This document shows positions 5,085-24,429 of a stretch of 41,286 nucleotides of DNA, piece after piece. The translations under genes were made by a program, and so were the position numbers. Within the stretch, counting starts at the first letter, position 1, and each line of letters starts with the position of its first letter. This stretch comes from a bacterium (GTDB lineage Bacteria; Sysuimicrobiota; Sysuimicrobiia; Sysuimicrobiales; Segetimicrobiaceae). The DNA lies in the NCBI GenBank assembly GCA_035295165.1, contig DATGJN010000034.1, forward strand, positions 1 through 41,286, in the 5' to 3' direction. Under the pieces are notes generated by a model. The model ran no database searches and was not told the origin of the DNA. It saw only the letters and a program-made list of their open reading frames with translations.

Positions 5085-8000
5085 TTACCCCAACACAATG
5101 CGGACTTGATGTTCCGCGCCATCGTCAGCAAGCGGAATGGTTGCAGAGTCCAGGTGCCTACCGTCCAGTTCAGCCAGAACAACGCCTCGGCAAACGCTGG
5201 ACGGGTTTTCCACCTGGACACTGTAGACTGCAGAATGATGCCGAAAACGGATGGAGTACCCTGGCCAGGTGCGCGGGATGCAGGGGTCGATGGAGAACAT
5301 CGGTCCGCGCACGCGAACACCCAACATCCACTCGATCGCCGCACGATAGAGCCATCCGGCCGATCCAGTATACCAGGTCCAGCCGCCGCGTCCCACATGG
5401 GGCGGTTCGGAATACACATCGGCGGCCACCACGTAGGGCTCCACTTTGTACCGCTGCACGGTCGCCCGTGAGACAGCGTGATTGATCGGGTTCAGCATGC
5501 CGAACAACTCAGCCGCTTTGTCTCCGTCGCCCAGTGCCGCAAAGGCCAACACGGTCCACGCGGCCGCGTGCGTGTATTGCCCGCCGTTTTCGCGGATGCC
5601 GGGTACATACCCGTTGATATAGCCTGGGTCGTGTGCCGTCCGATCAAACGGCGGCGTGAGCAACAACACGAGCCCCTCCGGACGCCGCACTAGGGTCTGG
5701 TCGACCGCGGCCATCGCGCGCGCTCCGCGGCCCGGTTCGGCGGCCCCGCTGATGACGCCCCAGGATTGAGCAATGGAATCAATCCGGCACACCGTGTTTG
5801 TGGCCGACCCGAGCGGTGTGCCGTCGTCAAAATACGCGCGGCGATACCACTCGCCGTCCCACCCGTGCCGTTCGAGCGCGGCCTTCAGTGCGCTCACATG
5901 CAACCGCCAGGTCTCCGCACGCTGCTGCTCGCCCCGCGCATCAGCAATCTTCGCAAACTCCCACAGAATCGTATGCAGGAACCACCCCAGCCACACGCTC
6001 TCTCCCTTGCCTTGCGGCCCGACGCGGTTCAAACTGTCGTTCCAATCGCCCGTCCCGATCAGCGGCAGCCCATGACTTCCCACCGCGAGGCTCCGATCGA
6101 GCGCGCGTGCGCAGTGTTCAAAGAGGGATCCGGCAGTGTCGGAGACCCGCGGTTGGAAGTAGGATTCGTTCTGTCCCTCGGCGAGCGCTTCGCCTTCCAG
6201 GAAGGGTACGACTTCATCGAGGACGCCGCGATCGCCCGTCACCTCGATGAATTGGAGGACAGCATAGGGAAGCCATAGCAGGTCGTCCGAAATGCGCGAG
6301 CGCACTCCGCGCCCCGACGGCGGGTGCCACCAGTGTTGAACATCGCCTTGCATGAACTGGCGCGCCGCCGCACGCAAGAGATGTTGATGAGCGACGTCGC
6401 GTGCCGCCACGGCGAGCGCGATCACATCCTGCAGCTGATCACGGAAGCCATAGGCGCCACTCGCCTGATAGAATGCCGCGCGCGCCCACACCCGACAGGA
6501 CAGCGTCTGGTAAAGTAACCAGCGGTTCACCAGAATATCCATCGACCGCTCGGGGGTGGTGATTTGGACGGTACCGAGCACGTCGTCCCATCGCCGGGTG
6601 ACATTTCGTAAAATCTCGTCGAGGTTTGCGGCGCGATAGCGAGTGATCAACTCCCGCGCCGCTTCCCGGCTTTCCGCCTGACCGAGGAAAAAGACGACTT
6701 CAACCTGGCCGCCGGGACGCAATTCGAGCTGCCGTTGCATCGCCGCGCACGGATCGAGCCCCGCACCCACCCGTCCCGAAAGCGGTCCTCCTCGCTCTAG
6801 CGCCGCAGGTCGCTCAGGCACGCCATTCCGGCCCAGAAACTCGGTGCGATCGCCCGACCAGGAACTCTGGAGTCCACCAAGATCAGCAAACGCCACACGC
6901 CCGCCGAACTCGCCGCCCCATACGCTTCGCGCGAACAGCGCGCCCGTTTGCGCGTCATGCTCGGTGACAATGTACGGAGCCGTCGAACTGCGCGAATTCC
7001 CGAGAACCCACTCTGCGTATCCAGTCACGGAGAGACGCCGAGAACGCGCCGAGTGATTCTGCAGAATGAGACGGGAGATCTTGATCGGGTCTTCCATCGG
7101 AACGTACTCCAGCAGGTGTGTCAGAATCCCGCGCGAGCCATGCTGGAATCGGCTGTACCCTTGGCCGTGCCACGCCACATACGGCGACGACTCATCCCGA
7201 ACCGGCAGCGGTGTCGGACTCCAGACGTCACCCGTCTCTTCATCGCGAATGTAGAGCGCCTCACCAGGCGGATCCGTCACGGGGTCGTTGGACCAGGGCG
7301 TCAGCTGATTCTCATGGCTATTACGCGACCACGTGTAGCCCGAGCCGGACTCTGAAACGAGAAACCCGAACGAGGAGTTCGCAATCACATTGACCCACGG
7401 GGCGGGTGTACGCAGGCCCTCCCCGAGGATGGTCACATACTCTCGGCCACCGTCGGCAAAACCGCCGAGGCCGTTGAAGAGTTCGAGTTCGGGCACATTC
7501 AACGGTACGTCCGCACCGTTTCCCGGGCGAAGCGACCACGACAGGGGCGGTGCCGCAGGTTCGGCGCGCTGAGCCCGAAGCACTTGCTCAGCCAACGAGC
7601 CGTGCCGGCTGAGCAGCACCGCGCGAGCCGCCGTTTGCAACAGTGTGCGGTCCTGCGCAGAAATCAGATCTCCCCGCAGCAGAAAAATGTCTCCGTGTGC
7701 ATCGCTTGTGTCTGGAGCCATGCGCTGCCGGCGTGCGCGCACCAGCTCATCCAGGACCCTCTGCAGTTCCTGCTCATACGACGGCGGTTTCTCGTTGAGA
7801 ATGACCAGGTCAACGGATAGCCGCTTCAGACGCCAGTATTCATGCGCCCGCAGCAATTGTCTGATGATTCCTACGTCTTCCGCGTCGTCGATGCGGACCA
7901 GCACGATGGGGAGATCGCCTGAAATCCCATGCGACCAGAGTGAAGATTGTTCGAGCGCTCCTCGGCTCAGGACCTCGGGAGGCGGTCGCAACGCAGGATC

Positions 8001-11000
8001 CGAGTACAGGACAGCATTGGCCAGCCTCTGAAACAAGTGCGCTTCGTCGGGCGTGATCCCCAGATGGTACAGTTGCACTTGCGCCTGCGTCCAGGCCAAC
8101 GTCAGCGTGCGTTCGATCGTGCCCGCATCCCGGTACTTGTCCGCCAACGCCAGCACCTGCTCGCGCGCCGGCGCGACAATGGTGGAGAACACAACGCGCG
8201 CGGTCTTGCCCGGCTGGATACGCACAGCACGCCGCAGGCTCATCACAGGATCGAGGACGGCACCAACGGTGTTCGAAAGAGGCCGTCCGTCGGTAATGGA
8301 AACGGGCGCGCGCACATGATGCCCGCGTCCGAGGAACCTGGCGCGATCCGTCTCGCATTGCAGGTTCCCAACTGATTCGCCCTCCACCACCGCCACGTGC
8401 GCGATCCAGACCGCCGTATCTTTGTCGCTTTGCCGACGGCGCGTTGCCAGTAGCGCATCCGCAGCCGCGACGAACTCCGTCTCCACAAACAAATTGGAAA
8501 ACGCGGGATGCGCCACGTCAGCGGCCTGTGGTGCGAGCGACAACTCTGCGTACGACGTGATTTGCACTTCACGGGTGCGGACACCGAGATTGGTGACCGA
8601 TACGCGACGCACCTCCGCATCGTCCTCGTGCGACACGACAACCTCGAGCGTGGTGGTTAGTGCCCCATCCCGCCGCGTGATTTCGGCACGGTCTTCGGTG
8701 AACCGGGCTTCGTAGGCATCGGGGGCGACGCCGCTGGGCTGGTAGCCTGCCGACCAAACCTGACCGGTCTGCGCGTCGCGGAGAAAAATGTAGGTGCCCC
8801 AGCAATCCCGTGTGACGTCCTCACGCCAGCGCGTGATCGCGAGATCCCGCCACCGGCTTGATCCCGAGCCCGCGGTCGTCAGCATCACCCCGTAGCGCCC
8901 GTTGGAAAGGAGATGCGTCCGCGGCACTGCATCGTGCGGTGTCGTGAATCGGCGCACCGCTGGCGGAACGAGCTCCCTGACGTACGCTCCCGCAGGGACG
9001 TCTTCCGCACTCGGCCGGGCAACCAGCACGTCACGCGGCGTACGCTCCTGCAACAGCAGCTCGGTCGCCTGCACGATCGGGTCTGCGTGAAATCGCGCGC
9101 GCATGGCGCCATCGTTGAGTACGTTGGCGAGCGCGACCACCGACATGCCCTGGTGGTGCGCCAGGTACGCGCGTACGATCGCGACATGTTCCCCTTCGGG
9201 CACTCGGGCCCGCGTGTAATCGAGCGCTTCATAGAATCCGTACGTCCCCGTCCCGCCGACCTTGGCGAGGTGCGTAAAGTTCTGCGTCGCCCTGCCGGGA
9301 TCAATCATGGCCGCGAGTGCGGTGGCGTATGGTGCGATAACAAGATCCTCACTGAGCCCGCGCTTGAGTCCTAATCCCGGCACGCCAAAGCTTGTATATT
9401 GGTACGTGAGGTCTAAGTCCCGTGCGTTGTATCCCGACTCCGAGATTCCCCAGGGTACACGGCGCTCTGCGCCGTAGGCAATCTGCCGTTGTACCACCAA
9501 CTCGTACGTCTGGCTCAACAAGCTGCCGGTCGGTGACATCATCACGAGTGCCGGCATGAGATACTCGAACATGGAGCCCGACCACGACACGAGGGCGGAC
9601 CCGCGACCCACCGCCGTCAGCGCTCGGCCGAGACGAAACCAATGGGATGACAGGATATCGCCTTTGGCGATGGCGATAAAGCTCGTGAGGCGCGCCTCCG
9701 ACGCGAGCAGGTCGTAACAGTTGGGATCCAGGGTACCGTCCGTGACACGATATCCGATGGACACGAGCCTGCGCGTATGATTGAAGAGGAACCTGAAATC
9801 CATCTCGTGGAACATGGTCTCAGCCTGCCGCGTGATCGTGGTCAGGCGACGAACGAGTGCGGAGGTATCGTCCGCCGAACGTCGGATGGCCTGCGCTAAG
9901 GCATCGACACCCGCCAAGGTGTCGGCGGTCGTGGATGCATGGTCGAGCAAGCCTGCGCGCACTGCCGCAAGCTCGCGCAGTGCCCCTTCAAATCGTTCCG
10001 GAGCGTCCGCAAGCGCGGGGAGTGGGTGACACAGCGACTCGATCAATGCCCACTCGGGTGACCGGCCCCTGGGGCGGTCGGCCTTGGCTGTACTCTTGCT
10101 CGAATCCAGCCGGATCCATGGAACAAACATCGCCAGATCCCTCGCGTGACTCGCAATGCATGCCGTGACGGCATCGGCCCACGCGCACACCTCGGAGTCG
10201 GGAGCGTCCCCGCGTTCCTGGGCGAAGGCGTGGGCAATGTCAGCGACGGTGTGAGCACGCGTCTCCAGCGCGACCAACCGCGCCGCCCACTCGCCGGGGG
10301 TGACCGGCATCGGCTGCAGCGAGTTGACCAGCGCGTCGATCGCATTACTGAGCTGCTTCCGGGTGACGATGTGCGTGCGTGGCGTCTCGGCGACCTCGTT
10401 GAGCGCCTCGCGTAAGAGCGCGATCGTGTCGTTCACGCCGCCGAACGCACGCCGCCCGAGAAAGGAGTCCTGGATCAGCTCTCGGCAACCGTTCCCGAGG
10501 GCGAGCAGATGTCCGGCAAGGTTACCGCTGTCCACCGAGGAGACATACTTGGGATCGAGCGGACGAAGGTCGCGCGTCGCGTACCAGTTGTAAAAGTGCC
10601 CGCGAAACGATTCGAGCTGGCGCATGGTCCCGAGGGTGGCTTCCAATCGCTCAACGGCGTCCACCGCACCCAGCCAGCCCAGGTCGCGCGCCGCCAACGT
10701 GGACAGCAGATACAGCCCCATGTTCGTCGGCGATGTTCGATGGGCCACGACCGGCTTCGGGTCCTCCTGGAAGTTATCGGGAGGCAGCGCGTGATCTGCG
10801 ACGGTGACGAAGGCCTCGAAGAAACGCCATGTCCGGCGCGCAATCAACCGGAGGGCTCGGGTGTTTGTCGCGGAAAGCGGCTCGACCCTGGTGCGCCTCG
10901 GTGGGAGACTGATCCACCGTGCGACTGCAGGTGCGGCAATCCAAAGAACGATGAACGGAAGCGCGGCGGCCCACCCTGGGTGCCGTTCAACGGCGAGCAT

Positions 11001-13883
11001 CGCCAGCACCGCCACCGCCAGTACCACGCCACCCGCCATGCGCGCATACATGCCAGACAGCGTCAGATCGCCGCCAGACTTGGCCTGCGTCGCGGTCACC
11101 CACTCCAAGAGACGCCGACGGGTGATAAACATGCGAGCGACGGTGCGCAGAATCGCGTCGAGCATCAACCAGGTCTGGGACGCCAACAGCGTCACCGTGA
11201 TCGCCAGTTGCGACGCGCCGATCGAAAGGTCGGTGAGGGCCGCGCGAAAATAGGCGCGCCTGGAGATTCCACGACGGGGCGGTGTGATTCCGACGAAGAA
11301 GGACAGCAGCGCGGGAATCGCCATCGTCGTCAAGATGAATGTCGTCCACACCCAGGCGGCAGCGGACGGCAACAGCCAGCCCGCAGCCACCGTGAAGAAC
11401 GCCGCCGGGGCTGACAACGAGCGCCGCAGATTGTCGATCATCTTCCACCGGCCAATCGCGGGGATCGCAACCGCACGTCGCTCTCCCATCGCTGCGCGCC
11501 TGCGTCCGAAGACCCACCGCAACAGTTGCCAATCGCCGCGCACCCAGCGATGCTGCCGGGCAGCTGCCACCTCATAGTGCGCGGGGAATTCGTCGAACAG
11601 CTCGATGTCTGACGCCAGCGCGACCCGCGCGAAGATGCCTTCGAAGAGATCGTGGCTCAGCAGCGCGTTATCCGGCATCTTGCCCGCCAACGCCGTCTCA
11701 AACGCGTCGACGTCGTAGATGCCCTTGCCAGTGTACGAACCTTCGCGGAACAAATCCTGGTAGACGTCCGAAACCGCGGAGGCATACGGATCCACGCCGC
11801 TCGGGCCAGAAAAGATGGTCTGGAACAGCGATCCCTCGTGGTCGACCGGGAGCGATGGGGTGATGCGCGGTTGCACAATCCCGTAGCCTTCCACAACGCG
11901 CCCAGCGCGCGCACTGAAGCTCGGGTGGTTGAGTGGATGCGCCATGGTCCCGACCAAACGGCACGCCGCACCGCGCGGCAGACGCGTGTCTGCGTCGAGC
12001 GTGATGACGTAGCGAACACCCAACGGGGTTGGTACCGGGCGCCCGCCGACCGGCACAAACGTCGTGTTCGCGCCGCCCCGGAGCACCTGGTTCAGCTCAC
12101 GCAGCTTTCCTCGCTTGCGCTCCCACCCCATCCACGTGCCCTCGCGCTCGTTCCAGACACGCTTCCGATGAAAGAGCAGGAAGCGCTCGGCGCCGTCAGA
12201 CGTGGGGCCGTAGAGCTTGTTGAGCTTCGCGACGCCGTCCACGGCGGCCGCAAGAAGTTCGTCATCGCCCGGGAGGCTCTCGGTCGGCGCGTCCAACCAG
12301 TCAGAGAGCAGCGCAAACCGCAGTTCGTCATCCGGATTCGCCAGGTAGTGAACCTCGAGCCGCTCCACCAGCTGTTCGACATGTTGTTGGGTCGTGAGCA
12401 GCGTGGGCACCACGACGATCGTGCGCAGCTCCCGCGTCACGCCGTTGCGCAGCTCCAGCCGCGGCAACACTTGCGGCCTGAGTACGTGGGTCACCGCACG
12501 GTTGATGAACGCGATCGCCAGGTCGGACGCAGGCACCACAGCGAGGAGGCCGAGCAACACCAGCCCCCACGCGGCGACTCCAGCGTCTCGTTCGTGCAAC
12601 AGCGGCAGCAGCATAATCAGGGCGGTCGCGAGGGCAATCGTCCCAAGGTAGCCTGGCACCGCGCTTCGCAAGTATAGGCGCAAGAGCCGGCCTTGCCACG
12701 CGACGCGGTACCCGAGTTCACGCTCAAACGCCAGACGCCCCTCGGCAATCAGGTAATAGCCCGCGTCCGCGCGCCGGTCCCCACGCGGCGCGCCGTCGTC
12801 AGGTGGCTCGAGGCGCGCCTGCTTGATGCGGTCCACTACACGTCTCACGACGTCGATTTCCGAACGGTCCGACCCCCGCGAGAGGTCCTCGATCGCATGG
12901 CGGTACGAATCCCTCGTGGCAAAGTCCATCTCCGCGAAGTTGGTCGCGTTTCGGAGCATTTCGTCCGCCAAGCTGACGCTCTCAAAGAAATCGGCCCAGT
13001 CAAAATCCGTCATCAACCGCATGCTGGTGATGACGTTCCGTACCGTGACGTTCATCGCCGCCTGGGCCTGGTGCTCGGCCCGGACAATGTCGTCAGCCGT
13101 CGTCCCCTGCGCAGTCACGTGCTGATCGAGCCAACGCTGGACGACATCCATCTTCGGGCCGAGGTCACGCAGGCGCTGGACAAGCTGGACGATAAAGGCC
13201 GTTGCGAGCGGTGCTTTTTCGACGCTGCGGAGGGCCGCTTCCGGTGAGATGGGAGCGCGCCCATTTGTCCCGAGCACGCTGTCTACCAGGGTGTCAACAT
13301 TCTGACGCGCGGTACGGTTCCGCACGATGCGCTCCGCCAGCCTGCGGAGGTTTTCAACAAGCACCACGCGGAGGCTGATGGCCACGGCCCAGAGCTCACC
13401 AATGGTCAGCGGTTGCACCCGCTGGTACGCCGCCACAAACCGGCGTAACATGTCCGGATCGAATCGGCTGTCCGTGTGCGCCACATAGGCCCAGGCCATG
13501 CCAAACACGCGCGGATACCCGTGCAGGTGACCCGAGGCGAGCTTCGGGAGTTTGCGGTAATAGCCGGTCGGCAAATCGTCTTCAATCTCGCGGAGTTGTT
13601 GATCGACGATGTGGAAGTTGTCAACCAGCCACTCAGCCGCCGGGACTAACGCATACTCCTCCCGAATCGCACGAGCAATCACCCGATACGACTCCAGGAG
13701 CACGCGGCCGTTCTCTGCAACCCGCGGGATCAGCGGGCGGCCCTGGTTCGTGTCGTTCGTGACGGTCTGCGCCGCCGCGAGACTCTCGGCGTGCTGCTCT
13801 AGCCGTTCCAAGCTGAAGAGTTCCGCCCGAATGGGTTCTTCCGGATCATCGAGCGTGAAGGTTAACGGTTCCTCCCTATTCAT
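5085..13883 (-). CDS. ndvB: cyclic beta-1,2-glucan synthase (NdvB/ChvB type), giant membrane enzyme
   Basis: A 2932-residue enzyme predicted to build cyclic beta-1,2-glucan from UDP-glucose at the inner membrane for the periplasm. Domains in order: an N-terminal conserved region (FSLERLEQHAESLAAAQ, then PAAEWLVDNFHI and LPTGYYRKLPKL, residues ~20-180); membrane segments near 409-430 and 437-465; a GT84 glycosyltransferase with DAD at 630-632 and QHRWVRGDW from 777; more membrane segments near 825-865 and 950-990; a glucoamylase-like region (RTSPTNMGLYLLSTLAARDL, ~1050). The C-terminal half carries GH94/phosphorylase-type modules with GTGDWND near 2610, which control ring size. ATG 13883 gives the family-like N-terminus but has no Shine-Dalgarno; an upstream in-frame TTG at 13979 adds 32 residues. 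No frameshift was seen over 8.8 kb. It may be carried by the tRNA-bounded segment. Confidence 0.9.
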   Translation of the reverse strand: MNREEPLTFTLDDPEEPIRAELFSLERLEQHAESLAAAQTVTNDTNQGRPLIPRVAENGRVLLESYRVIARAIREEYALVPAAEWLVDNFHIVDQQLREIEDDLPTGYYRKLPKLASGHLHGYPRVFGMAWAYVAHTDSRFDPDMLRRFVAAYQRVQPLTIGELWAVAISLRVVLVENLRRLAERIVRNRTARQNVDTLVDSVLGTNGRAPISPEAALRSVEKAPLATAFIVQLVQRLRDLGPKMDVVQRWLDQHVTAQGTTADDIVRAEHQAQAAMNVTVRNVITSMRLMTDFDWADFFESVSLADEMLRNATNFAEMDFATRDSYRHAIEDLSRGSDRSEIDVVRRVVDRIKQARLEPPDDGAPRGDRRADAGYYLIAEGRLAFERELGYRVAWQGRLLRLYLRSAVPGYLGTIALATALIMLLPLLHERDAGVAAWGLVLLGLLAVVPASDLAIAFINRAVTHVLRPQVLPRLELRNGVTRELRTIVVVPTLLTTQQHVEQLVERLEVHYLANPDDELRFALLSDWLDAPTESLPGDDELLAAAVDGVAKLNKLYGPTSDGAERFLLFHRKRVWNEREGTWMGWERKRGKLRELNQVLRGGANTTFVPVGGRPVPTPLGVRYVITLDADTRLPRGAACRLVGTMAHPLNHPSFSARAGRVVEGYGIVQPRITPSLPVDHEGSLFQTIFSGPSGVDPYASAVSDVYQDLFREGSYTGKGIYDVDAFETALAGKMPDNALLSHDLFEGIFARVALASDIELFDEFPAHYEVAAARQHRWVRGDWQLLRWVFGRRRAAMGERRAVAIPAIGRWKMIDNLRRSLSAPAAFFTVAAGWLLPSAAAWVWTTFILTTMAIPALLSFFVGITPPRRGISRRAYFRAALTDLSIGASQLAITVTLLASQTWLMLDAILRTVARMFITRRRLLEWVTATQAKSGGDLTLSGMYARMAGGVVLAVAVLAMLAVERHPGWAAALPFIVLWIAAPAVARWISLPPRRTRVEPLSATNTRALRLIARRTWRFFEAFVTVADHALPPDNFQEDPKPVVAHRTSPTNMGLYLLSTLAARDLGWLGAVDAVERLEATLGTMRQLESFRGHFYNWYATRDLRPLDPKYVSSVDSGNLAGHLLALGNGCRELIQDSFLGRRAFGGVNDTIALLREALNEVAETPRTHIVTRKQLSNAIDALVNSLQPMPVTPGEWAARLVALETRAHTVADIAHAFAQERGDAPDSEVCAWADAVTACIASHARDLAMFVPWIRLDSSKSTAKADRPRGRSPEWALIESLCHPLPALADAPERFEGALRELAAVRAGLLDHASTTADTLAGVDALAQAIRRSADDTSALVRRLTTITRQAETMFHEMDFRFLFNHTRRLVSIGYRVTDGTLDPNCYDLLASEARLTSFIAIAKGDILSSHWFRLGRALTAVGRGSALVSWSGSMFEYLMPALVMMSPTGSLLSQTYELVVQRQIAYGAERRVPWGISESGYNARDLDLTYQYTSFGVPGLGLKRGLSEDLVIAPYATALAAMIDPGRATQNFTHLAKVGGTGTYGFYEALDYTRARVPEGEHVAIVRAYLAHHQGMSVVALANVLNDGAMRARFHADPIVQATELLLQERTPRDVLVARPSAEDVPAGAYVRELVPPAVRRFTTPHDAVPRTHLLSNGRYGVMLTTAGSGSSRWRDLAITRWREDVTRDCWGTYIFLRDAQTGQVWSAGYQPSGVAPDAYEARFTEDRAEITRRDGALTTTLEVVVSHEDDAEVRRVSVTNLGVRTREVQITSYAELSLAPQAADVAHPAFSNLFVETEFVAAADALLATRRRQSDKDTAVWIAHVAVVEGESVGNLQCETDRARFLGRGHHVRAPVSITDGRPLSNTVGAVLDPVMSLRRAVRIQPGKTARVVFSTIVAPAREQVLALADKYRDAGTIERTLTLAWTQAQVQLYHLGITPDEAHLFQRLANAVLYSDPALRPPPEVLSRGALEQSSLWSHGISGDLPIVLVRIDDAEDVGIIRQLLRAHEYWRLKRLSVDLVILNEKPPSYEQELQRVLDELVRARRQRMAPDTSDAHGDIFLLRGDLISAQDRTLLQTAARAVLLSRHGSLAEQVLRAQRAEPAAPPLSWSLRPGNGADVPLNVPELELFNGLGGFADGGREYVTILGEGLRTPAPWVNVIANSSFGFLVSESGSGYTWSRNSHENQLTPWSNDPVTDPPGEALYIRDEETGDVWSPTPLPVRDESSPYVAWHGQGYSRFQHGSRGILTHLLEYVPMEDPIKISRLILQNHSARSRRLSVTGYAEWVLGNSRSSTAPYIVTEHDAQTGALFARSVWGGEFGGRVAFADLGGLQSSWSGDRTEFLGRNGVPERPAALERGGPLSGRVGAGLDPCAAMQRQLELRPGGQVEVVFFLGQAESREAARELITRYRAANLDEILRNVTRRWDDVLGTVQITTPERSMDILVNRWLLYQTLSCRVWARAAFYQASGAYGFRDQLQDVIALAVAARDVAHQHLLRAAARQFMQGDVQHWWHPPSGRGVRSRISDDLLWLPYAVLQFIEVTGDRGVLDEVVPFLEGEALAEGQNESYFQPRVSDTAGSLFEHCARALDRSLAVGSHGLPLIGTGDWNDSLNRVGPQGKGESVWLGWFLHTILWEFAKIADARGEQQRAETWRLHVSALKAALERHGWDGEWYRRAYFDDGTPLGSATNTVCRIDSIAQSWGVISGAAEPGRGARAMAAVDQTLVRRPEGLVLLLTPPFDRTAHDPGYINGYVPGIRENGGQYTHAAAWTVLAFAALGDGDKAAELFGMLNPINHAVSRATVQRYKVEPYVVAADVYSEPPHVGRGGWTWYTGSAGWLYRAAIEWMLGVRVRGPMFSIDPCIPRTWPGYSIRFRHHSAVYSVQVENPSSVCRGVVLAELDGRHLDSATIPLADDGAEHQVRIVLG

Positions 13884-14034
13884 GCCGGCAATGTGGGATT
13901 CTGGCGCGGGAGGTGTGTACGAGCCGTCGTGCGCTGTCGCTGATTGGTACCCAACCGCCGGCACTTGTGGCACCGGCAATCACCGAGGGCACCGAATGGA
14001 ATGGCAGCGTGTGGTACCGGTGGAACTGCACCAA
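13876..14034 (-). CDS. possible upstream ORF/leader overlapping ndvB start
   Basis: The only strong ribosome site before ndvB is AAAGGAG (14047-14041 on the minus strand). Six bases on, it meets TTG 14034 (then GTG 14031), in a different frame from ndvB. That frame runs 52 codons and ends at TAG 13878-13876, three bases beyond the ndvB ATG at 13883-13881. The peptide is not recognisable. Possible meanings are a translated leader coupling ndvB translation, chance, or a sequence indel near the ndvB start. Confidence 0.3.
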   Translation of the reverse strand: MVQFHRYHTLPFHSVPSVIAGATSAGGWVPISDSARRLVHTSRARIPHCRHE

Positions 14035-20520: not shown

Positions 20521-20910
20521 ATGGACACGCCGAACCTGGAGATTCGGACGCGCGAGTGCGCTCCCGGGATCGTGCTCGTCGAGCCCTTCGGAGAAGTGGA
20601 CCTCGGCAACACCGCGGCCGTCGAGATAGCGGTCCGCGACGCCGTCGGCCGCGGGCGTCACGTGATCGTGGCGCTCGGGGGTCTACGGTATCTCGACAGC
20701 ACCGGCCTGAATTCGCTGCGGCAGTGCCACGCCATGGCGGAGCGCTTGGGTCAGAGACTGGTCGTGGCGGAGCCCACCCCCGTCGTGCGGCGCGTCATGG
20801 ATGCGATTGACTTCCCGCGCCTGGTCCCGGTCTTTTCCCGGACGGCCCTCGCGATCGCGGAGCTGACGTCCGGGTCGCGCGGCCGCTCGGAAGAAGAGCG
20901 TGGAAGTTGA
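20521..20910 (+). CDS. STAS-domain anti-anti-sigma factor (SpoIIAA/RsbV-like)
   Basis: A 129-residue single STAS domain. In partner switching the unphosphorylated form binds an anti-sigma kinase (RsbW/SpoIIAB) and frees a sigma factor; the kinase inactivates it by phosphorylating a serine. The site is LRYLDSTGLNSL (Ser60, Asp59), with the flanking strands IVLVEPFGEVDL and HVIVALGGL typical of the family. The last ~25 residues are a charged tail (GSRGRSEEERGS). It lies 20 bases after the MBL-fold gene and 150 bases before the large phosphatase-kinase-STAS fusion, its likely partner. No sigma factor gene lies in the window. Confidence 0.9.
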   Translation: MDTPNLEIRTRECAPGIVLVEPFGEVDLGNTAAVEIAVRDAVGRGRHVIVALGGLRYLDSTGLNSLRQCHAMAERLGQRLVVAEPTPVVRRVMDAIDFPRLVPVFSRTALAIAELTSGSRGRSEEERGS

Positions 20911-21060: not shown

Positions 21061-24000
21061 ATGGCGGCTGGACGCGGTTCCCACCGTTCGCACGGCGCAC
21101 GGTCCCACAATGCGACTTCGGTCGCGGTCCTGTTGGCCGCGTTGTGTGTGGGCGGCCTCGTCTGGGCGTTTCACGCCGACTTTCCCGCCGACGGATGGCT
21201 CTTCCTCTACGCGCTGCCCGTGATCGGAGCCGCCGCGTATCTCGGCGGGCGGATCCCAGGCGGTGTTGCGGGGATCTTCAGCCTGCTCGCAGCGCGGTAC
21301 TTCATCGTCTCGCCCGCGTACTCGTTCTCACTGTTCCCGGCCATCCTGCCGGTGCTCGGGTTGTTTGCCCTCTTGTCCGCGTTCGTCGTCGAGGCGTCCG
21401 TGCGGCTGCGCGATGCGGACATCGCGGCCCGGAAGCTCGCGTCGATCGTCGAGTCCTCGGACGACGCGATATTCAGCGAGACGGTCGATGGGACCATCCT
21501 GACGTGGAACGCCGGCGCGGAGCGACTGTACGGGTACGCGCCTGCGGAGGTGATCGGACGCTCCGTTTCGATGCTCGCGCCGCCGGAGCACGCGGACGAG
21601 ATCGCGGGGATCCTGACGCGCCTGCGGCGGGGGGAGCGCGTCGAGCGTCACGAGAGCGTGCGCCTGAAGAAGGACGGGACCCGCTTCGACGTGTCCCTGA
21701 CCATCTCGGCGATTCGAACTGCCTCGGGAATGATCGCGGGCGCTTCCGTAATCGCCCGCGACATTTCGGATCGCAAGCGCATCGAACGACAGCAGCAGGT
21801 GCTGACCGAAGCCAGCGAAGCCCTCGCGCGGTCGCTCGAAGTGGATGCCAACCTTGAAACCCTCGCCGGGCTGCTCGTGGCCGAACTCGCCGACTGGTGC
21901 ATCATCGATCTCGTCGGTGACGATGGGACGTTGCGCACGGCGATTACGAAACACCGGGATCCGGCCCGTATGGCGTTGATGCGCGAGGTGCAGCGTCAAT
22001 ATCCCCCCGACCTGCGGTCCGGATACGGATCGGCGAACGCGGTGCGAACGGGCAGGGCGGAAGTGTACCCGGACGTCTCGGACGCGTTGCTCGAGGAGGC
22101 CATGCCCAACGCGGCGCTGCGTTCGATCATGCGCAACCTTGGGTCGCGGTCGGCGATGGTGGTGCCGCTGACGGCCAGGGAACGGGCGTTTGGAGCGATC
22201 ACCCTCTTCTCCGCGGAGTCCGCCAGGCGGTACACCGGCAGCGATCTTGTGTTCGCCGAGGAACTTGCGCGGAGGGCGGCGCTGGCCCTGGACAACGCGC
22301 GGCTCCACCGCTCCGAGCAGCTCCAGCGGGCTGCAGCTCAGCGCGCCGTCGATCGGATCGGCCGGATGCAGGCGGTCACGGCGGCCCTTTCGGAGGCCGT
22401 GACGCCGGAGCAGGTCGCCGACGTGATCGTCACGCACGCCCTGCAGACGCTCGGCGGTACCGCGGCCGGTCTGTTCTTGATCGGGCCGGACGGGTCCACC
22501 GCAGAGCTCGTTCGGGCGGTGGGATACCCGCCGGAGATCACGCAGCGGTCGCGCCGGCTTTCGCTTGAGCAGCACCCGGTGCTCGCTGCCGCGATCCGGA
22601 CTCGGCGGGTCGCGTGGCGCGACCCCGACGACGATGCGGACGCCCCCGAGCACGAGGGGATTCCGGAAGCGTTCCGGCGGGACGCCCGCGCATCGATTCC
22701 CATGATGCTGCACGGGCGCGCGATCGGCGTGTTGAGCATGAACTTTCGCGACCGCCACAGTCCGGGGGCGGACGACCTCGAGTCCATGCTCACGCTGGGG
22801 TGGCAGTGCGGCCAGGCCGTCGAACGGGCGCGCCTGTATGCCCGAGAACATCGGGTCGCCGAAACGCTTCAACGCGCGTTCTTGCCGGGCGTGCTGCCGC
22901 AGCTTCCAGGGATCGCCGTACACGCCGCGTACCGCTCCGGAGGGGTCCGGGAATCGGACATCGGAGGAGACTGGTACGACGTGTTCCGGCTGCCGAACGG
23001 GCACCTCGCGCTTTCCATCGGGGATGTCGCGGGGCGGGGGCTGCGGGCCGCGGTGACGATGGGACAACTCCGCCAATCGATTCGTGCGGCGGCGCTTGAG
23101 CACACCGATCCTTCGATCGTGCTGAAGCATGTCAGCGACCTGCTCGCGCTCACTGACGGCGACGACACGATGGCGACGGCGTTGTTCGGAGTGCTCGATC
23201 CGAACACGTGCGTCCTGGCCTACGCCACGGCGGGCCATCCGGCCCCGATCCTGGTCGGCCATGACCTGGAGCCTGCCCGGCTCGGGTGTGGCGGATTGCC
23301 CCTCGGCTACCTGGGGGACGAGCCGCTACCGCTTCAGACGGTTGAGTTGCCCGCGGGAAGCTTGCTGGTTGTGTACACAGACGGACTCGTCGAGACCCGG
23401 TATGATCCGATTGTGGGAGAGGCTGCGGTGATCGAGGCCGCGCGGCGCGAGTTGGCGGAGGCGACCTCAGATCACGCTGAGGGCATCGTGCGGCGGGTGC
23501 TGACGCACGAACCGATTCGCGACGACATCGCCGTGATCACGTTGGCGGTCGCAGGGACACGGCTTGACCGGTTCGAGATCACCCTGCCGGCCGAGCCGCG
23601 GAACGCCGTGTTGATCCGCCAGGCGCTCCGCAGGCTCGCGCTGGACGCTGGTTTGGATCCAGACCGTCTGGCCTCGGTGACCGTGGCGGTGGGCGAAGCC
23701 GTCAACAACGTGATCGAGCACGCGTACGGCGCGAAGACCGGGCCGGTGCGCGTTCGGGCGCGGCTCGATGGGTCGGTGCTCCGCATCGACGTGGCGGACG
23801 AAGGGACGTGGCGGCCGGTGCGACCCGCCGACGGAGGGGGACACGGGCTCCACGTGATGAAGGCGCTGGTCGACGTCGTCGAGGTCGACACGACGCCCGC
23901 GGGTACAACGGTGCGCCTGGCGGTGAAGCTGCCCGACGACCGCGGCCCGGGCCGGCGGGCTCCGTCTACGGCCGACGGCTCCATCCCGGCTGCCCCGCTC

Positions 24001-24429
24001 GCGGTCTCGGGCGCGCCGCTCGCCGCGGTGGGTCCGCCGCGGGGCGTGACCGCGCTGCCGCCGGGGCACCCGGTGGCCTTGAAGATCTCCCAGATCGACG
24101 GGATTCCTGTCGTGACGGTGGCCGGTGACCTGGATCTGGAGAACACCGACGCATTCGCAGCAACACTCGACCGCGCGGCGCGTGCGGAATCCGGGACCGT
24201 GATCGTGTCGCTCGGCGACGCCACGTACCTCGACAGCCATGCTGTCGGCACCTTGTTCCGGTTTGGGCGTCGGCTCACCACCAACCGGAGGAAGTTGCTG
24301 GTCGTTGCTCCATCGTCCGGGGCGCTGCGGCGGATCGTCGATATCGCTGGAATGCAGGCGGTGCTGAGGATCTTTGATTCGCTGGCGGAGGCTGCGCGCA
24401 GCGCCCTGCCGACCATCGACGCCTCGTGA
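21061..24429 (+). CDS. membrane sensor fusion: TM-PAS-GAF-GAF-PP2C (RsbU)-HATPase (RsbW)-STAS (RsbV)
   Basis: A 1122-residue protein uniting a whole partner-switching pathway. Order: three or four membrane helices of DUF4118/KdpD type (residues ~18-110), a PAS domain (~125-240, SIVESSDDAIFSETVDGTIL), two GAF domains (~255-415 and ~435-590), a PP2C/SpoIIE phosphatase (GGDWYDVF 635-642, GDVAGRG 654-660, TDGLVE 773-778, RDDIAVI 820-826, all metal aspartates present), an RsbW-like HATPase (EAVNNVIEHAYG 879-890, GGHGLHVMKALVD ~926-938), a Pro/Ala linker (~960-1005), and a STAS domain with TYLDSHAVGTL (Ser1059). ATG 21061 is the only in-frame ATG after an upstream stop; its ribosome site is weak. 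The free STAS protein next door is a likely substrate. Confidence 0.92.
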   Translation: MAAGRGSHRSHGARSHNATSVAVLLAALCVGGLVWAFHADFPADGWLFLYALPVIGAAAYLGGRIPGGVAGIFSLLAARYFIVSPAYSFSLFPAILPVLGLFALLSAFVVEASVRLRDADIAARKLASIVESSDDAIFSETVDGTILTWNAGAERLYGYAPAEVIGRSVSMLAPPEHADEIAGILTRLRRGERVERHESVRLKKDGTRFDVSLTISAIRTASGMIAGASVIARDISDRKRIERQQQVLTEASEALARSLEVDANLETLAGLLVAELADWCIIDLVGDDGTLRTAITKHRDPARMALMREVQRQYPPDLRSGYGSANAVRTGRAEVYPDVSDALLEEAMPNAALRSIMRNLGSRSAMVVPLTARERAFGAITLFSAESARRYTGSDLVFAEELARRAALALDNARLHRSEQLQRAAAQRAVDRIGRMQAVTAALSEAVTPEQVADVIVTHALQTLGGTAAGLFLIGPDGSTAELVRAVGYPPEITQRSRRLSLEQHPVLAAAIRTRRVAWRDPDDDADAPEHEGIPEAFRRDARASIPMMLHGRAIGVLSMNFRDRHSPGADDLESMLTLGWQCGQAVERARLYAREHRVAETLQRAFLPGVLPQLPGIAVHAAYRSGGVRESDIGGDWYDVFRLPNGHLALSIGDVAGRGLRAAVTMGQLRQSIRAAALEHTDPSIVLKHVSDLLALTDGDDTMATALFGVLDPNTCVLAYATAGHPAPILVGHDLEPARLGCGGLPLGYLGDEPLPLQTVELPAGSLLVVYTDGLVETRYDPIVGEAAVIEAARRELAEATSDHAEGIVRRVLTHEPIRDDIAVITLAVAGTRLDRFEITLPAEPRNAVLIRQALRRLALDAGLDPDRLASVTVAVGEAVNNVIEHAYGAKTGPVRVRARLDGSVLRIDVADEGTWRPVRPADGGGHGLHVMKALVDVVEVDTTPAGTTVRLAVKLPDDRGPGRRAPSTADGSIPAAPLAVSGAPLAAVGPPRGVTALPPGHPVALKISQIDGIPVVTVAGDLDLENTDAFAATLDRAARAESGTVIVSLGDATYLDSHAVGTLFRFGRRLTTNRRKLLVVAPSSGALRRIVDIAGMQAVLRIFDSLAEAARSALPTIDAS

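Follow-up and report, generated by a model that had tools for sequence, protein, structure and literature searches.

The window, as the whole 41,286-nucleotide stretch of DNA analysed here is called, encodes a membrane protein in which a sensor part, a PP2C phosphatase, an RsbW-like kinase and a STAS domain succeed one another in one chain (Table 1). On balance, this protein is probably a membrane-anchored, single-chain partner-switching module, working like Rv1364c of Mycobacterium tuberculosis and feeding the SigB/F/G-type sigma systems of its genome in trans. The source genome, a MAG-like assembly in 121 contigs, is incomplete (completeness 97.9%, contamination 2.9%). Full-length syntenic orthologues of the fusion ORF, with about 60% identity throughout, are present in two genomes of the same genus and, therefore, the ORF is not an assembly chimera.

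Table 1. Features of the fusion protein and the free STAS gene upstream of it (window coordinates).
Feature	Position	Strand	Details
Membrane sensor-phosphatase-kinase-STAS fusion protein	21061..24429	+	1122 aa, intact ORF; Pfam and NCBIfam domains
DUF4118-like membrane region, aa 22-118	21124..21414	+	DUF4118, 27.5 bits, slightly below the cut-off (28.4)
PAS domain, aa 126-235	21436..21765	+	PF00989, E=2.6e-18; TIGR00229, E=2.4e-27
First GAF domain, aa 278-410	21892..22290	+	PF01590, E=4.4e-16
Second GAF domain, aa 447-588	22399..22824	+	PF13185 (GAF_2), E=3.5e-22
SpoIIE/RsbU-type PP2C phosphatase, aa 612-829	22894..23547	+	PF07228, match 645-829, E=3.4e-41
RsbW-like GHKL kinase domain (HATPase_c_2), aa 842-953	23584..23919	+	PF13581, E=5.7e-25; RsbW/SpoIIAB fold match
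Disordered kinase-STAS linker, aa ~958-1003	23932..24069	+	pLDDT <50 over most of the linker
C-terminal STAS domain (RsbV-like), aa 1008-1111	24082..24393	+	PF01740, E=5.6e-14; putative phospho-acceptor Ser1059 in Y-L-D-S
Free STAS gene	20521..20910	+	129 aa, D-S site; PF01740, E=8.8e-14

The Pfam scan placed the sensor part at the N-terminus of the single ORF, followed by the SpoIIE PP2C phosphatase, the GHKL kinase and the STAS domain, and the NCBIfam scan agrees at the domain level. The membrane region probably forms three to four transmembrane helices; the hydropathy profile contains several strongly hydrophobic stretches between about residues 16 and 116. In the predicted model, an N-terminal helix appears to join the second GAF domain to the phosphatase. 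None of the NCBIfam equivalog models was reached by the fusion protein, and the fused kinase scores below the cut-offs of the curated anti-sigma equivalogs, with 44.8 bits for RsbW (cut-off 145) and 42.1 bits for SpoIIAB (cut-off 135). Elsewhere in the genome, a stand-alone RsbW-like kinase (L063 3262-4164, on contig C50 of G000) scores like the fused kinase domains, and no STAS gene turned up within an 8-kb stretch around it.

Besides this order of domains, the layout of Rv1364c includes intact metal-binding, ATP-binding and phospho-acceptor residues, and these are found in the window protein as well. They comprise the aspartates of the PP2C metal site (D637, D655, D774 and D821/D822), the kinase motifs (E879/N883, D913-x-G915 and GxG) and the STAS phospho-site (D1058-S1059). 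When 17 fused proteins are aligned, the window's own among them, the PP2C aspartates, the E/N and D-x-G residues of the kinase and the D-S pair of the STAS domain are invariant (17/17), and the linker preceding the STAS domain differs in both length and sequence among the relatives. The original prediction of sensor, phosphatase, kinase and STAS in one chain, each with its catalytic motifs, is thus borne out by the Pfam matches and the invariant residues, and neither the HATPase nor the STAS domain lacks its key residues in these proteins. The presence of kinase, phosphatase and their putative common substrate in cis would also fit the internally cycling switch that had been proposed.

The phosphatase-kinase-STAS architecture is not new, because Rv1364c has been published as a PAS-PP2C-kinase-STAS protein. 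PMC9138534 and PMC7693655 describe these four domains in a single polypeptide and report both autophosphorylation and autodephosphorylation of its own STAS domain; Rv1364c is also named in PMC12143880. The best match of the phosphatase-kinase part among solved structures is Rv1364c (PDB code 3ke6, E=5e-26). In Rv1364c (653 aa; PDB codes 3ke6, 3kx0, 3k3c and 3k3d), phosphatase, RsbW-like kinase and STAS follow one another as in the window protein, with a PAS domain on the N-terminal side; the kinase activity of Rv1364c is reportedly disputed, to judge from the title of a 2008 article by Sachdeva. The two proteins differ in their sensor parts, which consist of a single N-terminal PAS domain in Rv1364c and of a membrane region, a PAS domain and two GAF domains in the window protein. 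They also differ at the STAS site, which reads H-L-G-S in an Rv1364c orthologue (L214; in frame over all three domains, E=1e-188 to 3ke6) and Y-L-D-S in the window protein. Thus, with regard to whether the architecture is common and described, the core is described, whereas the membrane region and the two GAF domains set the present protein apart. A literature search by domain names returned, among the titles and abstracts listed, no further description of the architecture beyond Rv1364c.

Two other known systems are related in their components. In Bacillus subtilis, RsbU/RsbP, RsbW and RsbV are separate, diffusible proteins with a linked sigma factor gene. The same three activities and the same logic of STAS phosphorylation are found there, and the folds of the solved RsbV/RsbW complex match the kinase and STAS domains of the window protein, which, unlike the B. 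subtilis system, is one chain without a linked sigma gene. SpoIIE-HATPase_c_2 fusions, which are widespread in Streptomyces and other actinobacteria, likewise combine phosphatase and kinase in one chain (~31-45% identity); unlike the window protein, the matches found in the contig search have no fused STAS. In several actinomycete genomes, a STAS ORF abuts or overlaps the 3' end of the phosphatase-kinase gene.

A count of the architecture across the phylum identified 18 in-frame fusions in 7 of 43 genomes, all of them within one family and distributed over three of its genera, with three or more fused copies in each of four genomes (G004, G005, G007 and G009). Together with the published architecture of Rv1364c, these occurrences in the protein's own family make the C-terminal STAS less exceptional than had been supposed. 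No fusion was seen in the family's other genus, where one ORF (in L190) runs off the end of its contig, or among the 31 genomes of the same phylum outside the family. Among 198 genomes belonging to the same class as Streptomyces, at least two fusions are in frame, namely L214 and L215, the latter a more distant orthologue of Rv1364c; the scoring was limited to 12 candidates in each genome, which makes this count a minimum. The L190 locus itself (contig C76 of G003) spans 7 kb and contains, besides the phosphatase-kinase ORF truncated at the contig end, three free STAS ORFs as well as an RsbW-like ORF.

Outside the family, relatives often encode the STAS domain separately, in a gene that immediately follows the phosphatase-kinase gene on its 3' side. 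At four of these loci (L098, L099, L075 and L076), the stop codon of the phosphatase-kinase gene and the start codon of the STAS gene share a 4-nt overlap, ATGA; at four others (L091, L092, L097 and L189), the separate STAS gene overlaps or lies close to the phosphatase-kinase gene. Five of the split loci (L075, L076, L091, L092 and L189) belong to the window's own order. In the STAS tree, which includes L214, L215 and L217 as fused proteins, the fused STAS domains form one clade (support 99/98) with the 3'-adjacent STAS proteins of L091, L097, L098, L099 and L189 and one free STAS of L190. This clade stands apart from the genome's other free STAS proteins and from the STAS domain of Rv1364c. 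The fused STAS thus shares ancestry with 3'-adjacent operon genes, and most likely derives from such an operon partner by fusion, as judged from the sequence comparisons. Since the STAS gene either adjoins its partner gene or is fused to it, depending on the genome, the fused STAS would most likely be the cognate substrate.

The phosphatase-kinase tree agrees with the STAS tree in that the Rv1364c pair falls in another well-supported part (100/99), and the grouping of all fused proteins in a single clade is rejected in this tree (p-AU 1e-35). Orthology with Rv1364c in the sense of a common fusion origin is ruled out by this test and by the separate STAS clades. Because a common origin is so strongly rejected, the fusions of Rv1364c and of the window are regarded as convergent. 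A single origin of the family's own fusions, with loss in one paralogue, is not rejected (p-AU 0.31 when the contig-edge ORF of L190 is counted). This paralogue, the closest one in the window's genome (L059 3459-6911, minus strand, on contig C37 of G000), contains no STAS, and its STAS was probably lost secondarily; a free STAS gene is located directly upstream of it. Genes resembling an IS21-type transposase pair lie near the paralogue (L059 91-2153).

We infer the reactions of the module, its signal and its sigma target as follows. The membrane, PAS and GAF modules would sense signals and adjust how active the PP2C domain is via the helix between the second GAF domain and the phosphatase. 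The PP2C and RsbW-like domains would act in opposite directions on Ser1059 of the C-terminal STAS, the former dephosphorylating and the latter rephosphorylating it, either in cis or across a dimer. Once dephosphorylated, the STAS would bind an RsbW-like protein, and anti-sigma factors would be relieved either by the fused STAS or by diffusible STAS proteins modified by the same enzymes. The predicted models of the kinase-STAS part (pTM 0.73) and of the phosphatase-kinase-STAS part (pTM 0.79) have folds that match RsbW/RsbV and SpoIIAB/SpoIIAA, and their confidence values suggest a fairly ordered arrangement with a disordered linker.

Two sigma factors of the genome score above the SigBFG cut-off, one on contig C75 and the other on contig C99, and both have an RsbW-like gene nearby, which is directly adjacent on C75; candidates for dedicated anti-sigma factors therefore exist. 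Contig C99 additionally carries a phosphatase-kinase fusion without a STAS domain. The original prediction had proposed looking in the full genome for an orphan sigma factor; no sigma factor over this cut-off was found to lack an RsbW-like gene in its vicinity. Because of these RsbW-like genes, relief of these anti-sigma candidates is the most likely output, and for the fused kinase a role as a STAS kinase is more probable than one as an anti-sigma factor. Neither a sigma nor an anti-sigma gene adjoins the fusion, and its syntenic loci contain no sigma gene; for the former reason, the sigma target is a guess at the genome level.

It is rather unlikely that the output is directed at something other than a sigma factor, with the state of the STAS controlling another effector (compare SiaABC) or the chain working as a local oscillator or timer. 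The lack of a nearby sigma factor would be consistent with such an output, as would the multiple fused copies in four of the family's genomes when set against the two SigB/F/G-type sigma factors in the window's genome, but the neighbourhood indicates no other effector and the surrounding genes look unrelated. A more radical variant, which we consider unlikely, is that this uncultured-bacterial family built, independently of mycobacteria, membrane-anchored, self-cycling STAS switches, at least three per genome in some cases, as stand-alone devices whose kinase, phosphatase and substrate would never separate and whose output would be the state of the STAS rather than the release of a sigma factor.

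The original prediction had allowed for the fused RsbW-like domain itself acting as an anti-sigma factor, which would keep sigma membrane-bound as long as its own STAS carries a phosphate and free it once the dephosphorylated STAS occupies the domain. The intact kinase motifs, the match between the predicted folds and solved structures in which SpoIIAB or RsbW chains are bound to their partners, and an interaction between Rv1364c and SigF reported in PMC7693655 are consistent with this role. It is nevertheless unlikely, given the RsbW-like genes near both sigma factors over the family cut-off and the absence of a sigma gene beside the fusion and in its syntenic loci. In addition, Mycobacterium smegmatis provides a precedent for separate roles, with RsbW2 described as a STAS kinase and RsbW1 as the anti-sigma factor in the same article (PMC7693655). 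A STAS kinase that acts on sigma systems in trans is the preferred reading.

The free STAS gene that had been pointed out directly upstream of the fusion is present, but it is not a conserved partner. The gene order near the fusion (amidase, MBL-like gene, fusion and a small ORF, with ABC genes nearby) is largely kept in the two genomes of the same genus; at both syntenic loci, however, there is no STAS gene between the MBL-like gene and the fusion, which are separated by a gap of ~270 nt. In the STAS tree, the upstream protein groups with other free STAS proteins and not with the fused STAS, so that an origin of the fused STAS as a copy of this gene is rejected. The upstream STAS is thus a neighbour rather than a conserved part of the system, and it may serve as a diffusible extra substrate in the window's genome. 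It is scarcely credible that the upstream protein serves as the working substrate and that the STAS in the fusion has become a degenerate remnant: the adjacent D-S site and the C37 paralogue, with its free upstream STAS in place of a fused one, would accord with it, but D1058-S1059 and the fold residues are invariant in 17/17 fused proteins, and the free STAS is both missing from the syntenic same-genus loci and unrelated to the fused STAS. In one of the same-genus genomes, the MBL-like gene matches in two frames (L177 6906-7698), which may reflect a frameshift. Further away in the window, an ORF of 2964 aa on the minus strand (5085-13979) combines GH94 supersandwich, GH94 catalytic and Glycoamylase domains and resembles a cyclic beta-glucan synthase.

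The layout of Rv1364c, with a whole pathway in one chain, is therefore no mycobacterial oddity and has evolved at least twice. The core layout was known; new here are the independent fusion event and the different sensor part. Relatives in which the STAS gene immediately follows the phosphatase-kinase gene, in some cases with the 4-nt overlap, likely represent the intermediate state. Together, the fused, split and apparently STAS-less relatives form a natural series in which partner switching in cis can be compared with switching through a diffusible STAS.
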